DNA from: Ichthyobacteriaceae bacterium
Lineage (GTDB): Bacteria; Bacteroidota; Bacteroidia; Flavobacteriales; JADGDT01
Reading direction: 5' to 3'
Assembly: GCA_023145615.1 (NCBI GenBank)
Contig: JAGLDK010000009.1
Location: 1-35,630, forward strand
Length of the DNA stretch: 35,630 nucleotides
Both the position numbers and the translations under genes were made by a program. The notes beneath the pieces were generated by a model. It worked only from the letters and a program-made list of their open reading frames with translations, was not told the DNA's origin and ran no database searches. Positions 27,120 to 35,501 of the stretch are shown piece by piece. Every line of letters starts with the position of its first letter. The first letter of the stretch is position 1.

Positions 27120-27608
27120 ATGAAAACATTTACTGCTATTGATTTTGAAACAGCTACAGGAAGTAGAAATTCGGCTTGTTCGGTTGGAATAATTACTGTT
27201 GAAGATGGGCAAATAACTAACGAGTATCATACTTTAATACAGCCACCACACAACGAGTATAATTGGCATAATACGCAAGTACATGGCATAACATCGCACA
27301 ACACTTTAAAAGCTCCAACATTTGCGCAAGTGTATGCTGAAATTAAAAACTTGTTGCAAAACAGATTAGTTGTAGCTCATAACGAAAGCTTTGATAGAAG
27401 TGTACTTACTAAAACAATGGCTTTGTATGGTTTAAATTATTCGGAGCTAAATTTAAATGATAAATGGGAGTGTACTTATAAAATACATGGCAAAAAGTTG
27501 AATGTTTGTGCCGAAAAATTCGGAATAGAACTAAAGCATCACGATGCTCTTTCTGATGCACGTGCTTGTGCGTTACTGTATCTTAAAAAAGATTTATCAG
27601 CAGTTTAA
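27120..27608 (+). CDS. 3'-5' exonuclease, DnaQ/DEDD family
   Basis: 162 aa; FTAIDFETATGSRNSACSVGIITVEDG (ExoI DxE), VAHNESFDRSVL, HHDALSDARACALL. Confidence 0.92.
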   Translation: MKTFTAIDFETATGSRNSACSVGIITVEDGQITNEYHTLIQPPHNEYNWHNTQVHGITSHNTLKAPTFAQVYAEIKNLLQNRLVVAHNESFDRSVLTKTMALYGLNYSELNLNDKWECTYKIHGKKLNVCAEKFGIELKHHDALSDARACALLYLKKDLSAV

Positions 27609-27791
27609 AGTGTATTTTTAAACAAATTAAATGTTTCTTTTTGATACTGCAGTTTGTATAATATTACAATACTGTAAGCGGTTGTTTTTATTGTAGTTAT
27701 TGTGTTAATTTTTTTTTCTTATAACTAAGTCAAATCAAAAAATATGCTTACACTTGCAACAAATAACAAAAGCTTAATAAAAACTATCGAA

Positions 27792-27836
27792 ATGATAATA
27801 ATTCGCCATCGCCATCATATTATATACTTACCATAG
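27792..27836 (+). CDS. hisL-like: Histidine leader peptide MIIIRHRHHIIYLP
   Basis: ATG ATA ATA ATT CGC CAT CGC CAT CAT ATT ATA TAC TTA CCA TAG; 3 His in 14 codons, immediately followed by attenuator helices and then the his operon. Confidence 0.8.
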   Translation: MIIIRHRHHIIYLP

Positions 27837-27921
27837 GTGAGGTGATGATATATGCGGTTAATTCGGCAAATAATATAAAAATCATACCCCATCTAAGTAA
27901 TTTAGGTGGGGTATTTTATTT
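27834..27921 (+). promoter_or_regulatory. His attenuator: antiterminator arm 27834-27849, shared arm 27881-27895, terminator 27884-27914 plus T-rich tract
   Basis: TAGGTGAGGTGATGAT can pair with ATCATACCCCATCTA (one mismatch, one bulge). ATACCCCATCTA pairs with TAGGTGGGGTAT (7-nt loop, one G-U), then TTTATTTTTA. The two helices are mutually exclusive. Confidence 0.82.
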
Positions 27922-28028
27922 TTACTACATCAAAATAACAATAGTTTACAGTAATAGTTTTTTTTTATAAAAAATAATAATAACATAAAGCTGAAGGCTT
28001 AATTGCCAAAAGCTAAAACCAAAATAAT

Positions 28029-28886
28029 ATGAGTATTTTAAGAATTGCAGTTCAGAAATCGGGAAGACTAAACGAGGATTCTCTTAAAATTTTAAAAGAT
28101 TGTGGAATATCAATTAACAACGGAAAAGGTCAGTTAAAAGCACAATCATCAAACTTTCCGTTAGAAATACTTTATTTAAGAAGTTCTGATATTCCTCAGT
28201 ATGTACAAGATGGAGTTGCTGATATTGCAATTGTTGGAGAAAATGTACTTGTTGATAAAAGAAGTGATTTAAACATTGTAGAAAAACTTGGTTTCTCTAA
28301 ATGTAGAGTTTCTTTGGCAGTGCCTAAAGAAGTTAACTATACTGGTGCAGAATGGTTTGAAGGTAAAAGACTTGCTACATCGTATGTAAATACTGCTCAA
28401 GATTTTTTTGATGCAAAAGGTATTAAAGTCGATTACCATAAAATATCGGGATCGGTAGAAATTGCTCCTAATATTGGGCTTGCCGATGGTATTTGCGATA
28501 TTGTAGAATCGGGTAGTACTTTATTTAAAAACGGACTTAAAGAGGTTGAGGAGATTTTTAAATCGGAAGCTGTTTTGGTTTCAAATAAAAAATTAAGCGC
28601 TGAAAAACAAGCTATTTTAGATAAGTTGGTTTTCAGAATTAAAGCTGTTTTAAAAGGTAAAAAATCGAAATATGTTTTATTAAACATTCCTAAAAATAAA
28701 GTTGAAGAAATTTCGAATTTATTACCTGGAATGAAAAGCCCAACAGTAACTCCGTTGGCAAAAGAAGGTTGGTGCTCAATACAAACAGTAATTGAAGAAA
28801 CCAAATTTTGGGAAGTTATTGATGAGCTTAAAAATGCTGGTGCCGAAGGGATTTTAATTATGCCAATTGAAAAAATTGTGCTGTAA
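28029..28886 (+). CDS. hisG: ATP phosphoribosyltransferase (long form)
   Basis: 285 aa; LRIAVQKSGRLNEDS, ADGICDIVESGSTL, C-terminal regulatory domain. Confidence 0.97.
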   Translation: MSILRIAVQKSGRLNEDSLKILKDCGISINNGKGQLKAQSSNFPLEILYLRSSDIPQYVQDGVADIAIVGENVLVDKRSDLNIVEKLGFSKCRVSLAVPKEVNYTGAEWFEGKRLATSYVNTAQDFFDAKGIKVDYHKISGSVEIAPNIGLADGICDIVESGSTLFKNGLKEVEEIFKSEAVLVSNKKLSAEKQAILDKLVFRIKAVLKGKKSKYVLLNIPKNKVEEISNLLPGMKSPTVTPLAKEGWCSIQTVIEETKFWEVIDELKNAGAEGILIMPIEKIVL

Positions 28887-28920: not shown

Positions 28921-30222
28921 TTGGAAAAAATATTCAACCCTGCAAAAAGCACATGGTCGGAAATATTAAAACGACCAACCAAAGAATTATACGAAATAGA
29001 AGAAACTGTTTCGGCAATTTTTAAAGAAATAAAGCAAGAAGGTAATAAAGCTGTAAATAAATATACTTTTAAGTTTGATGGGGTTGATGCTCATGGAAAG
29101 GAAAGTTTACAGAATACTATTTTAGTTTCGGAACAAGAAATTAAAGAAGCCGAATTGTTGGTTGACGATAAGTTGAAGAAAGCAATTTTGGTAGCTAAAG
29201 CTAATATTCTGAAATTTCATGATGCTCAAAAGCTCGAAAAGAAACTTGTAGAAACTATGCCTGGCGTAGTTTGTTGGCAAGAAACTCGTGCTATTGAAAA
29301 GGTTGGATTGTATATTCCTGGTGGAAGTGCTCCTTTGTTTTCATCGGTGTTAATGCTTGGTATGCCTGCTATAATTGCGGGATGTAACGAAATAGTACTT
29401 TGTACTCCTCCAAATAAAGAAGGTAAAATTAATCCTGCAATTTTGTTTACTGCTACTCAGGTTGGAATTACAAAAATTGTAAAAGCCGGAGGAATTCAAG
29501 CTATTGGAGCTATGACTTTTGGTACTGAAACCGTGCCTCAGGTTAATAAAATATTCGGGCCTGGAAATCAGTATGTAACTGTTGCAAAACAATTATCAAC
29601 AAAACACGGTGTTGCTATTGATATGCCGGCTGGGCCTTCGGAAGTTTTGGTTATGGCCGATAAAACTGCTAACCCTGCTTTTGTAGCTGCCGATTTACTT
29701 TCTCAGGCCGAGCATGGTGGAGATTCTCAGGTAATTTTAGTTAGTACCGATAAAAATATTTTGGCTAAAACCGAAGTTGAAGTTGAGAAACAATTAAAAC
29801 AATTATCGAGAGCTGATATTGCACAGCAAGCAATTAATAATTCGAAGCTTTTATATGTTGAAAATTTAGAAGAAGCTATTGAATTATCGAATGAATATGC
29901 ACCAGAGCATTTAATTATTTCGATGGCAAATTTCGAAGAAATAGTTCCGCAAATAAAAAATGCAGGTTCGGTTTTTTTAGGAAATTATACGCCCGAAAGT
30001 GCTGGAGATTATGCATCGGGTACTAATCATACTTTGCCAACAAATGGATTTACAAGAGCATATAGTGGCGTAAATTTATCGGCATATTGCAAAACTATTA
30101 CTTTCCAAAATATATCAAAACAAGGATTGCAAAATCTGGGAGAAACTATTGAGGTAATGGCTGAAGCTGAAGGATTAGATGCTCATAAAAATGCGGTTAC
30201 TTTACGAATTGTTAATGGTTAA
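28921..30222 (+). CDS. hisD: Histidinol dehydrogenase (TTG start)
   Basis: 433 aa; GLYIPGGSAPLFSSVLMLGMPA, IDMPAGPSEVLVMAD, QAEHGGDSQ. Confidence 0.97.
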   Translation: MEKIFNPAKSTWSEILKRPTKELYEIEETVSAIFKEIKQEGNKAVNKYTFKFDGVDAHGKESLQNTILVSEQEIKEAELLVDDKLKKAILVAKANILKFHDAQKLEKKLVETMPGVVCWQETRAIEKVGLYIPGGSAPLFSSVLMLGMPAIIAGCNEIVLCTPPNKEGKINPAILFTATQVGITKIVKAGGIQAIGAMTFGTETVPQVNKIFGPGNQYVTVAKQLSTKHGVAIDMPAGPSEVLVMADKTANPAFVAADLLSQAEHGGDSQVILVSTDKNILAKTEVEVEKQLKQLSRADIAQQAINNSKLLYVENLEEAIELSNEYAPEHLIISMANFEEIVPQIKNAGSVFLGNYTPESAGDYASGTNHTLPTNGFTRAYSGVNLSAYCKTITFQNISKQGLQNLGETIEVMAEAEGLDAHKNAVTLRIVNG

Positions 30223-30298
30223 ACTGTATTGACATTTACATATTGATAATTCACAATTCAGAATTGTACATTGATATTTGCACATTGATATTAAAAAA

Positions 30299-31321
30299 AT
30301 GGAACATTTAGTAAGAGAAAATATAAAGGCATTAAAACCATACTCTTCGGCAAGAGATGAGTTTAAGCAAAAAGCAGAAGTGTATTTAGATGCTAACGAA
30401 AATCCTTATAATAATAGTTTAAATAGATACCCCGACCCATACCAAAAAGACGTTAAAAAATTGATTTCGGAATGGCGTGGTGTTTCTGTTAATAAAATGA
30501 TGTTGGGAAATGGAAGCGATGAGGTATTAGATTTAATATATCGTGCTTTTGTTGAGCCAAAACAAGATAATGCAATTCAGCTTCCGCCAACTTATGGTAT
30601 GTACGATGTGTTGGCTAACATTAATAATGTTGAATTAAGAAGTGTTGGTTTAAACGATGATTTCTCGTTAGATATTGATGCTATTTTAGAGGCTCAGGAC
30701 AATAATTCGAAGTTGCTTTTTGTTTGTTCGCCTAATAATCCAACTGCTAATGTTTTTGATATATCGAAAGTAGAAAAACTTTTGAAAGAGTTTAATGGAG
30801 TTGTGGTTATTGATGAAGCTTATATTGATTTTGCTGAAGGTAAATCGTGGGTTGATAGATTAGACGAGTTTCCTAATTTAATTGTTACTCAAACTTTTTC
30901 GAAAGCACTTGGGCATGCGGCTATCAGACTTGGAATTGCTTATGCATCGGAATATATTATTTCGGTACTAAACAAAATTAAGCCACCTTATAATGTAAAC
31001 GAACTTACTCAGCGTAGAGCTTTAGAAGTATTGAATAAAAGAGATTTTTATTTGCAAATTAAGGCTATAAAAGAGGAGAGAGAAAAGCTAAATATTGAAT
31101 TATTGGAACTTACTTTTGTTGAAAAAGTTTATCCATCGGAAGCCAATTTTATTTTGATAAAAGTTGATGATGCAAATAAGCGTTACGATGAACTTTTAGC
31201 ACAAGGAATTGTTATAAGAAACAGAAGTACTCAATATAAATGCGAAAATACATTGAGAATAAGTATTGGTACTCCTGATGAAAACGAGATTTTAATTAAA
31301 GCAATGAATAAACTGGTTTAA
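30299..31321 (+). CDS. hisC: Histidinol-phosphate aminotransferase
   Basis: MEHLVRENIKALKPYSSARDEF, YLDANENPYNN, VVIDEAYIDFA, FSKALGHAAIRLGIAY. Confidence 0.96.
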   Translation: MEHLVRENIKALKPYSSARDEFKQKAEVYLDANENPYNNSLNRYPDPYQKDVKKLISEWRGVSVNKMMLGNGSDEVLDLIYRAFVEPKQDNAIQLPPTYGMYDVLANINNVELRSVGLNDDFSLDIDAILEAQDNNSKLLFVCSPNNPTANVFDISKVEKLLKEFNGVVVIDEAYIDFAEGKSWVDRLDEFPNLIVTQTFSKALGHAAIRLGIAYASEYIISVLNKIKPPYNVNELTQRRALEVLNKRDFYLQIKAIKEEREKLNIELLELTFVEKVYPSEANFILIKVDDANKRYDELLAQGIVIRNRSTQYKCENTLRISIGTPDENEILIKAMNKLV

Positions 31322-31404
31322 TTGCTTGTTTGATTATGTGTTAATTCGTTTTTGCCGAATACATTATAAACAAATAACAATATAACCTAAACACATAAAC
31401 AGTT

Positions 31405-32529
31405 GTGAAAACAGTATTGAAAAAAGCATTATTTATAGATAGAGATGGTACAATAGTAGTTGAGCCACCTGTAGATTATCAGCTTGATAGTCTTGAAAAG
31501 TTAGAATTTTATCCAAAGGTATTTCAGTATTTGGCACGTATTGCTGCCGAGTTGAATTACGAATTGGTTATGGTAACAAATCAAGATGGTTTAGGAACCG
31601 ATTCTTTTCCTGAGGATACTTTTTGGCCTGCACACAATAAAATGCTACAAGCTTTTGAAGGAGAAGGAATAAAGTTTGATGATATACTTATCGACCGTAG
31701 TTTTCCGGAAGATATGGCACCAACACGTAAGCCACGTACAGGGTTGTTAGAAGAAAAATACATGACCGGTAATTACGATTTGGCAAATTCGTATGTGCTT
31801 GGAGATAGAGCTACCGATATTGAGTTGGCTAAAAATTTGGGTGCAAAAGGTATTTTTATTGCTGATGAACATGCCGAACCTGCCGATGCCGAAACTCAGG
31901 CTTTACAAACTAATGATTGGAAGGTTATTTATGAGTTTTTGAAAAGTAAGGAGCGTATTTCGGTTGTGAAACGTTATACTAACGAAACCAAAATTGATAT
32001 TAAACTTGAATTGCTTGGTAATGGTGGTGGAACAATTGACACCGGAATTAAGTTTTTCGATCATATGTTAGAGCAAATTTCTCGTCATGGAAGCATGAAC
32101 TTGGATGTTAAAGTTGTTGGAGATTTAGAGGTTGATGAGCATCATACAATTGAAGATACTGCTTTGGCATTAGGAGAGGCTTTTAAAATAGCTCTTGGAA
32201 ATAAAATGGGTATTGAGCGTTATGGTTTTACTTTACCTATGGACGATTGCCTGGCTCAGGTTGCAATTGATTTTGGTGGTAGAAATTGGCTTGTTTGGGA
32301 AACCGAATTTAAAAGAGAGTATGTTGGTAAAATGCCTACAGAAATGTTTTTCCACTTTTTTAAATCGTTTAGCGATGCTGCACAATGCAACCTAAATATT
32401 AAAGCCGAAGGAGATAACGAACATCATAAAATTGAAGGTATTTTTAAGGCTTTTGCTAAAACTATGAAAATGGCGGTAAAACAAAATTTTGCGGATATGC
32501 AAATACCATCAACTAAAGGAACGATATAA
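31405..32529 (+). CDS. hisB: Bifunctional histidinol-phosphatase / imidazoleglycerol-phosphate dehydratase (GTG start)
   Basis: 374 aa; N-terminal [17 protein letters not shown]-terminal [17 protein letters not shown] and [16 protein letters not shown]. Confidence 0.97.
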
Positions 32530-32596
32530 CAATTAGAAATTATCAATAAACAATTTTTTATAGGTAGTTGGTAATTGAAAACTGTAAATTGAAAAA

Positions 32597-33175
32597 ATGA
32601 TAGTAATAGTAGATTACGGAGCAGGAAATATACAATCGGTAAAGTTTGCTTTTGAACGTTTGGGTGTTGATGCGGTTTTAACATCGGATGTTGAGGTTAT
32701 TAAAAAAGCCGATAAAGTTATTTTTCCAGGAGTTGGTAGAGCCGAATCGGCAATGGTTAAGTTAAAAGCTACAGGTTTAGATAAACTAATTCCTGCTTTA
32801 AAACAGCCTGTTTTGGGTGTTTGTTTGGGTATGCAACTTATGTGTAAACATACTGCCGAAGACAATATTAATGGACTTGATATTTTTCCGTTAGAAGTTA
32901 AAGAGTTTCCTAAAACATTAAAGGTGCCACAAATTGGTTGGAATCAAATTTCGGAACTAAAAACCGATTTGTTGAAAGATGTTAAAGAGGATTCGTTTGT
33001 ATATTTTGTGCATAGTTTTTATGTGCCTGATAATAGTTTCAGCATAGCATCAACTAACTACGGAATGAAATATTCGTCGGCAATAAAGAAAGATAATTTT
33101 TATGCAACTCAGTTTCATCCTGAAAAGTCGGGAAGTATTGGAGAGCAAATTTTAAAAAACTTTTTGGCCATATAA
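32597..33175 (+). CDS. hisH: Imidazole glycerol phosphate synthase glutaminase subunit
   Basis: 192 aa; VDYGAGNIQSV, GVCLGMQLM, FHPEKSG. Confidence 0.97.
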   Translation: MIVIVDYGAGNIQSVKFAFERLGVDAVLTSDVEVIKKADKVIFPGVGRAESAMVKLKATGLDKLIPALKQPVLGVCLGMQLMCKHTAEDNINGLDIFPLEVKEFPKTLKVPQIGWNQISELKTDLLKDVKEDSFVYFVHSFYVPDNSFSIASTNYGMKYSSAIKKDNFYATQFHPEKSGSIGEQILKNFLAI

Positions 33176-33255
33176 TTTAACCGTTTATGTTGATTTGTTG
33201 AATGTTTATTTATAATGTTTCAACAGCTCAATTATTAAACATTTCAGCAAATAAA

Positions 33256-33984
33256 ATGAGAATAATACCAGCAATAGATATTATAGGAGGTAAATGCGTA
33301 AGACTTACCAAAGGAGATTATAGTACCAAAAAAATATATAACGAAAGCCCGTTGGATGTGGCTTTAGAGTTTCAAGATAACGGAATTGAGTATTTGCACG
33401 TTGTAGATTTAGACGGAGCAAAATCAAGCCACATTGTAAACCACAAGGTTTTAGAAACTATAGCTTCTCGCACAAATTTAAAAATTGATTTTGGAGGAGG
33501 ATTGAAAACCGATGAGGATTTGAAAATTGCTTTCGAAAGTGGTGCTCAACAAATTACTGGAGGAAGTATTGCGGTTAAAAATCCTGAAATTTTTGAAGGT
33601 TGGATTAAAAAATACGGAAGCGATAAAATTATACTTGGTGCCGATGTAATGAATGAAAAAATTGCAGTTGCTGGTTGGCAAGAAGATTCGGGGCTTGATC
33701 TTTATGATTTTCTTGATGATTATACATCGAAAGGAATTAAGAACGTTATTTGTACCGATATTTCGAAAGACGGTATGCTTGAAGGGGCTTCGGTTGCATT
33801 GTATATTAAGATGATTGCAAAGTATAAAAACATAAATCTTACTGCAAGCGGTGGAGTTAGTAATATTGCCGACTTAATGATTTTAAGAGAAAATGGTTTG
33901 GAATCGGCAATTGTTGGAAAGGCTATTTACGAGGAAAGAATTTCGATGAAACAGTTGCAGGATTTTATTTTAAGTAACGGCTAA
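33256..33984 (+). CDS. hisA: ProFAR isomerase
   Basis: [22 protein letters not shown]; internal Met start preferred over 33202. Confidence 0.96.
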
Positions 33985-33995
33985 CATCTATTAAA

Positions 33996-34751
33996 ATGCT
34001 TACAAAAAGAATAGTTCCTTGTTTGGACATAAAAAATGGTAGAACCGTAAAAGGTGTAAACTTTGTTAATTTAAGAGATGCTGGTGATCCGGTTGATTTA
34101 GCAGAAATTTACTCGAAAAATGGTGCCGACGAATTGGTTTTTTTAGATATTTCGGCTACCGAAGAACGCAGAAGAACTCTTGTTGATTTGGTTAAACGAG
34201 TTGCTCAGCGTATTAATATTCCGTTTACAGTAGGTGGCGGAATATCGTCGGTTAGTGATGTTGATAGATTGTTAAAATCGGGTGCCGATAAGGTTTCTAT
34301 AAATTCATCGGCAGTAAAACGCCCAGAGCTTATAAACGAACTTTCGGCAGCTTTTGGTGCACAATGTGTTGTTGTTGCTATTGATGCCAAGCAAATTGAT
34401 GGAGAGTGGATAGTACATCTTGTAGGTGGTAAAGTGCCTACCGAACTTAATCTTTTCGATTGGGCAAAAGAGGCTCAAGATAGAGGTGCAGGAGAAATTT
34501 TGTTTACATCAATGAATAACGATGGAACTAAAGATGGCTTTGCAAACGAGGCTTTGGCACGTTTAAGTAACAATTTACATATTCCTATAATTGCATCGGG
34601 TGGGGCAGGAACAATGCAACATTTTGCCGATACTTTTATTGATGGAAAAGCCGATGCAGCTTTGGCAGCTAGTGTTTTTCATTTTAAAGAAATTGAAATT
34701 GCCGACTTAAAAGCCGAATTAAAAAAACAAGGTATAGCGGTTAGAATTTAA
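33996..34751 (+). CDS. hisF: Imidazole glycerol phosphate synthase cyclase subunit
   Basis: 251 aa; [29 protein letters not shown]. Confidence 0.98.
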
Positions 34752-34838
34752 TAATTTACTAACAATTATAAGTTGTGCAATTACCAATAACTTATAGCTG
34801 TTAATTGCATTAATATGCATATTGATAATTGAAAAAAC

Positions 34839-35501
34839 ATGAAAATAGATTTTAATAAACAAGATGGACTTGTGCCAGCAGTGGTTCAGGATGCCGAAAC
34901 TAATAAGGTTTTAATGTTGGCTTACATGAACGAGGATGCCTACAACAAAACTATTGATACTAAAATGGTTACCTTTTGGAGCAGAAGCCGAAACGAACTT
35001 TGGACTAAAGGAGAAACATCGGGTAATACAATGAAACTTGTTGATATTGCTGTTGATTGCGATAATGATACCCTTTTGGTAAAAGTAATTCCGGTAGGTC
35101 CGGTTTGTCATTTAGGATCTGATACTTGTTGGGACGAAACCAATTCTCGTTTTACAAAGCACGTTACACAAAGTGGAACCGAAATTGTAGATGATAATTC
35201 AGCAAACGAAGGAAAGGAAATAGGCGAATTTATTTCTCATTTAGAAGATGTAATAAAAGAGCGTAGAACTAATATGAGTGATAAATCATATGTAGCATCT
35301 CTATTTAAAAAAGGAATTAATAAAATTGCTCAGAAAGTTGGAGAAGAAGGTGTTGAGGTTGTTATTGAAGCAATGGACAACAACGATGATTTATTCTTAA
35401 ACGAAAATGCCGATTTACTTTTTCATCAATTAATTCTTTTACAAGCAAAAGGATATACTATGAAAGATGTAATTGAAGTGCTTAAAGGAAGAGAAAAATA
35501 A
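34839..35501 (+). CDS. hisIE: Bifunctional phosphoribosyl-AMP cyclohydrolase / phosphoribosyl-ATP pyrophosphatase
   Basis: 220 aa; MLAYMNEDAYNKT, WSRSRNELWTKGETSGN, C-terminal KVGEEGVEVVIEAM. Confidence 0.97.
   Translation: MKIDFNKQDGLVPAVVQDAETNKVLMLAYMNEDAYNKTIDTKMVTFWSRSRNELWTKGETSGNTMKLVDIAVDCDNDTLLVKVIPVGPVCHLGSDTCWDETNSRFTKHVTQSGTEIVDDNSANEGKEIGEFISHLEDVIKERRTNMSDKSYVASLFKKGINKIAQKVGEEGVEVVIEAMDNNDDLFLNENADLLFHQLILLQAKGYTMKDVIEVLKGREK

Follow-up and report, generated by a model that had tools for sequence, protein, structure and literature searches.

Is the short histidine-rich open reading frame that precedes a his operon in an Ichthyobacteriaceae bacterium the control element of that operon and, if so, by what means does it act? 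The DNA analysed here (the window) is the whole 35,630-nucleotide stretch at positions 1–35,630 of the forward strand of contig JAGLDK010000009.1 (assembly GCA_023145615.1), for which an earlier note, made from the sequence alone, had proposed a histidine-responsive attenuator upstream of a Bacteroidota his operon. NCBIfam matches establish that the downstream operon is complete (hisG-D-C-B-H-A-F-IE), and it is the biosynthetic operon for the leader's own amino acid. Our analyses indicate that the whole operon is very probably controlled by this element, acting as a histidine-specific transcription attenuator of the ribosome-mediated type. Its component features are as follows.

27120–27608, + strand: DnaQ-like exonuclease gene upstream of the leader, on the same strand
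27749–27756, + strand: Bacteroidota-type −7 promoter-like box TACACTTG (consensus TAnnTTTG), identical in both congeners
27792–27836, + strand: leader peptide ORF MIIIRHRHHIIYLP, with its stop codon TAG at 27834–27836 (direct reading of the sequence)
27805–27867, + strand: protector (1:2) hairpin, 27805–27823 with 27845–27867, including a nested hairpin 27827–27832:27836–27841 (minimum-energy and centroid structure)
27807–27818, + strand: control codons CAT CGC CAT CAT (His Arg His His), at the alignment position of the consecutive His codons in 30 Flavobacteriaceae leaders
27834–27849, + strand: antiterminator 5′ arm (segment 2), pairing with 27881–27895 and corresponding in alignment to the CTCARGCGAG block conserved in relatives
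27881–27895, + strand: antiterminator 3′ arm (segment 3), overlapping the terminator 5′ arm (duplex computation, covariation in relatives)
27884–27914, + strand: predicted intrinsic terminator hairpin (segments 3:4), −18.1 kcal/mol (terminator scan; the helix covaries in relatives)
27915–27924, + strand: U tract TTTTATTTTT after the terminator (direct reading, terminator scan)
28029–28886, + strand: hisG, which opens the operon (matches to NCBIfam TIGR00070 and TIGR03455 exceed cut-off)
28921–35501, + strand: hisD, hisC, hisB, hisH, hisA, hisF and hisIE, the rest of the operon (ORFs, each with NCBIfam matches above cut-off)

Leader, putative promoter and competing folds

The leader encodes 14 residues from the ATG at 27792 (ATG ATA ATA ATT CGC CAT CGC CAT CAT ATT ATA TAC TTA CCA, then TAG). 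Three of the four codons at 27807–27818 specify histidine (27807–27809, 27813–27815 and 27816–27818), and His clustering of this kind is enriched phylum-wide. At the corresponding place the two congeners, which are the closest relatives, encode MLISRHHHHFYNLPQVS and MFFNHHHHFTTLLK, and hence the RHRHH of the window is, judging from these sequences, a variant of their RHHHH. The response to histidine may be weaker in the window than in the congeners with their four consecutive His codons, because it has only three and an Arg codon lies between the first two. The TAG of the window falls at the position of a CAG in the nearest congener, and the peptide ends 9 nt earlier (window CCA TAG GTG AGG TGA, nearest congener CCT CAG GTG AGC TAA).

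The spacing between the promoter-like box TACACTTG and the leader is similar in the window and in both congeners, and 80 of 129 leaders in relatives have a TAnnTTTG-like box 8–75 nt ahead of them, compared to 10% of shuffles. No clear −33 element was found at the putative promoter of the window, and scanning for sigma-70 promoters returned no site that clearly exceeded expectation. The transcript is predicted to start at approximately 27760–27765, a few bases 3′ of the −7 box.

The region 27780–27930 folds at −41.5 kcal/mol (z = −5.0), which none of 200 shuffles equalled. The antiterminator duplex, at −14.5 kcal/mol, comprises 27834–27839:27890–27895, 27841–27843:27886–27888 and 27845–27849:27881–27885, interrupted by one mismatch (27840 × 27889) and one bulge (27844). 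The hairpin at 27884–27914 is the sole terminator-like site in 27600–28030, where 0.2 were expected. In the predicted structure the protector hairpin spans all three His codons with its 27805–27823 arm, and both congeners fold a corresponding hairpin over their own His codons; together, the protector and its nested hairpin would conceal most of the antiterminator arm. In the window, 114 nt (27915–28028) separate the terminator from hisG, compared to 40–46 nt in the congeners, and this spacer could in principle house another promoter. It also holds a GCTGAAGGCTTAATTGCCAAAAGCT stretch, present once in the window.

The effect of ribosome position was modelled with an assumed front edge of 13 nt and the ribosome placed either at the middle His codon or at the stop. 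In the window, the probability that the terminator 5′ arm is paired upstream is 0.89 with the ribosome on the His codons and 0.02 with it at the stop, and none of 20 shuffles reached the stalled value. Averaged over 129 loci, the probability is 0.68 (stalled) and 0.13 (at the stop); shuffling the intervening sequence lowers the stalled mean to 0.41. The terminator is thermodynamically the stronger of the two helices and, at equilibrium, prevails even when a stalled ribosome occupies the His codons; the switch would therefore have to be kinetic, the antiterminator forming first, as is usual for attenuators.

These results bear out most of what the earlier note had read in the sequence. Direct reading returns its 14-codon ORF with three His codons (RHRHH) and TAG at 27834–27836; the duplex computation agrees with its antiterminator, 27834–27849 with 27881–27895, down to the single mismatch and bulge; and the terminator scan located its hairpin, 27884–27895 with 27903–27914, and the T-rich tract behind it. 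The geometry it described, with the antiterminator arm free under a stalled ribosome and covered by one at the stop, is reproduced by the stalling model, given the assumed 13-nt front edge. The note had also proposed a third helix over the His codons that would hide the antiterminator arm; this role stands, but the pairing itself, CATCGCC (27807–27813) with GGTGATG (27841–27847), was rejected, since the minimum-energy fold gives a larger protector in another register.

Conservation and variation of the leader across the phylum

HisG was used to gather loci from named genomes and from genomes of the window's family, order and class, and the upstream 420 nt were searched for short ORFs with at least three His in any six residues. 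Such ORFs are present in 194 of 207 distinct hisG upstream regions (94%), compared to 62 of 2070 shuffles (3%). When ATG-started ORFs were counted residue by residue, histidine was the only one so enriched, being found in 93% of regions while the next, lysine, reached 21%. An intrinsic terminator was detected behind the leader at 129 of 191 loci, compared to 8 of 573 shuffles (1.4%), and the distance from leader to hairpin is short and fairly constant across loci. Leaders that lack a terminator are concentrated in one group of 36 loci (Algoriphagus and kin); outside it, 128 of 155 leaders are followed by one. Beyond the class, another 20 upstream regions were sampled in the phylum; 13 contain His-rich ORFs, a few of them weak or GTG/TTG-started, and some of the 13 are matches to the R1 model directly before hisG. 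Second His ORFs in five loci (L109, L116, L125, L132 and L134; MHVNHHI etc.) were discounted, as they overlap the pairing arms 3′ of the true leader.

Covariation was assessed in an alignment (A1) of 30 Flavobacteriaceae leaders, none from the window's genus. RNAalifold yields only the terminator from these relatives, as expected where helices are mutually exclusive, and the antiterminator was therefore tested as a specified helix. It is 93.7% paired, compared to 21–48% when slid, with two-sided changes in 10 cells and a covariation score that were both reached by none of 500 shuffles; only a few columns carry the strongest covariation (51:112 and, in one sequence, 47:116). Part of the conservation of the arm could be coding, because in relatives it overlaps the end of the leader ORF. 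The terminator helix likewise covaries in A1, and an independent covariation count that includes the window's genus agrees with the A1 result. Strongly shared sequence in the relatives is limited to the codons and the pairing arms.

The covariance model built from A1 matches the window at 27792–27922 with 53.9 bits (E = 9e-11), its only strong match in that genome; the next best score 23 bits (E ~0.07). These lie at C36:21872–21964 on the minus strand and C28:23318–23394 on the plus strand (loci L219 and L220) and could represent either attenuators at other operons or simple terminators. The A1 model also matches ahead of hisG in many further genomes across the phylum, where weak matches (30–40 bits) occur away from hisG as well. 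The covariance search upstream of hisG that the earlier note had recommended finds arms that covary, and a model made without the window's genus finds the window. Homologous hisG upstream regions without a His-rich ORF and complementary arms, which the note had named as evidence against its proposal, are the reverse of what the survey returned (194 of 207, with covarying arms).

Several departures from the common form were observed. Two loci carry two complete tandem His attenuators, each with its own hairpin: MIFTRLHHHHFFLPQVSR then MTFIARHHHHHHLYLLQVNW in L008 (−361 and −179 relative to hisG), and MNTITLHHHHFDTCNQAS then MLFLTQINIHHHFHTCNQASWW in L013 (−346 and −181). The 36 loci mentioned above, mostly from Algoriphagus, Echinicola, Belliella, Cecembia and relatives (e.g. 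L021, L024, L064, L175), share an HHxHHSS type of leader, approximately 25–29 residues long and ending in HHFHHSS, whose stop codon lies within a conserved hairpin, ATTCCTCCTGAGGAAT; a second conserved hairpin is present in 21 Algoriphagus-like loci. The consensus fold of this type is −12.1 kcal/mol compared to −2.5 kcal/mol for column shuffles, a U-tract terminator was detected in one of the 36, and its output is perhaps Rho or translation.

The His leader is preceded by a tRNA-Phe gene on the same strand in 20 loci of Saprospiria-like genomes (L015, L016, L018, L020, L023, L026, L029, L033, L037, L039, L046, L049, L051, L055, L058, L060, L062, L065, L075 and L078), which suggests that tRNA-Phe and the his operon are co-transcribed there; the tRNA gene is absent from that position in L007, L030 and L044 among the Saprospiria-like loci examined. 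GTG-started leader ORFs with 10 scattered His codons (e.g. MKRTKLHISHPHHDVHHLHQGHHHA) were seen elsewhere in the phylum (L271, L272, L273 and L274), and no obvious terminator was found in L274, the one sequence read among them. Four genomes of approximately 0.6 Mb, a size usual for insect endosymbionts, from the same order, which the relatives found suggest to be Flavobacteriales (L148, L149, L150 and L151), retain hisG with no His leader upstream, consistent with a loss of regulation in reduced genomes. It is possible, if on balance a little doubtful, that most of the Bacteroidota possess an uncatalogued and diversified family of His attenuators outside the RF00514 model, occurring as tandem copies, behind tRNA-Phe in Saprospiria, and in Cyclobacteriaceae as a terminator-less form with another output, its His codons placed just before a hairpin-embedded stop.

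Proposed mechanism and alternative explanations

Under the attenuation model, transcription would begin near 27760. When histidine is plentiful, the ribosome would pass the three His codons and reach the stop at 27834, where its front edge would mask most of 27834–27849; with the antiterminator arm masked, segment 3 would pair with segment 4 and the polymerase would halt near 27920, leaving an RNA of approximately 160 nt. When charged tRNA-His is scarce, a ribosome stalled at 27807–27818 would open the protector hairpin, allowing segments 2 and 3 to pair before segment 4 is made, and transcription would read through into hisG. If no ribosome were present, the protector and terminator hairpins should both form and transcription should end.

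Other explanations account for parts of these observations. The hairpin at 27884–27914 might be a plain intergenic terminator for the exonuclease transcript, accompanied by a chance and meaningless His ORF; the exonuclease gene does end on the same strand at 27608, and terminator-like hairpins are frequent between genes. We regard this as very improbable, since His-rich ORFs of the same architecture recur in 94% of the regions preceding hisG, compared to 3% of shuffles, at a short and fairly constant distance before the hairpin, and the antiterminator helix covaries, while the leader is separated from the exonuclease gene by a promoter-like box that the congeners retain. There is a slim chance, little greater, that the leader controls hisG translation or mRNA stability, or works through Rho, with no intrinsic terminator involved. 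The window's hairpin has a good U tract and stands 114 nt before hisG, too distant to mask the start codon, and most leaders outside the Algoriphagus group possess a terminator (128 of 155); the 36 loci, mostly Algoriphagus/Cyclobacteriaceae, that combine a His leader with a single terminator among them nonetheless imply that output differs in part of the phylum. Least credible of all is a directly sensed RNA, either a T-box or a metabolite riboswitch, that runs the terminator while the short ORF is incidental. The strong overall folding (z = −5) would suit such an RNA, but no Rfam family reaches cut-off in the window, no T-box appears up to E = 10, and the only strongly shared sequence consists of the codons and pairing arms.

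Significance and comparison with known systems

Attenuation by histidine is textbook knowledge in enterobacteria, and the mechanism proposed here is of that textbook kind; what is new is the survey of the phylum, together with the covariation and variant forms, a breadth that is useful and under-catalogued. Bacteroidota have different promoters and mostly no Shine-Dalgarno sequences. The near-universal association of His attenuation with hisG across the phylum offers a system in which to test whether the coupling of transcription to translation in Bacteroidota is tight enough to support attenuation, and the breadth of the leader justifies an Rfam family for annotation. The Arg-interrupted His run and early stop of the window provide a natural variant for examining the minimum number of control codons.

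Rfam 15 holds no family that reaches cut-off in the window. The His_leader model (RF00514) gives no match there at its gathering score and none up to E = 10 in 27700–28030, nor any at gathering scores in 13 other loci, and for the T-box model no match up to E = 10 is listed in 27700–28030. Weak matches in the leader to the trpB motif, the PyrG leader and snoRNAs fall below cut-off and were taken as chance. A comparative study by Vitreschak et al. in 2004, cited in PMC6429828, reportedly predicted amino-acid attenuators in Bacteroidetes/Chlorobi. The Bacteroid-trp motif (RF01692) is a trp leader; it concerns a different operon and has no match in the window. PMC2864571 names it among candidate cis-regulatory RNAs in Bacteroidetes.

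The earlier note had called the element unannotated, which holds for Rfam 15, but a transcriptome study of Flavobacterium psychrophilum (ISME Commun 2021; PMC9723704) describes a structured, Rfam-less 5′ element before hisG that is common to other Flavobacteriaceae, and finds strong indications of attenuation by leader peptides at operons for amino-acid biosynthesis. That element resembles the window's in the gene it precedes, in its conservation among Flavobacteriaceae and in having no Rfam match, and the two are probably the same, as far as the published description goes; for hisG in particular, the main text of that paper states neither sequence nor leader peptide nor mechanism, and it includes no survey beyond the family. 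A search of the accessible literature for His leaders of Bacteroidota or Flavobacterium turned up no other report.

Outside the proteobacteria, His attenuators with three to five consecutive His codons have been described in the Bacillus cereus group, Peptostreptococcaceae and Erysipelotrichales (PMC9413887), and Firmicutes examples also in PMC2965389. Those of PMC9413887 share with the window exclusive terminator and antiterminator helices and an absence of RF00514 matches; they belong to another phylum, and the likeness lies in the described architecture.

A further parallel is the enterobacterial hisL attenuator (RF00514), which the window resembles in its His-codon leader, in its protector, antiterminator and terminator helices, and in the his operon downstream. 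The hisL leader has a run of seven His codons, whereas that of the window has three, broken by Arg, and the core CTCARGCGAG block is a Flavobacteriales feature. Because the RF00514 model gives no match, the element lies outside that family, though it works, on our reading, like an RF00514 attenuator.
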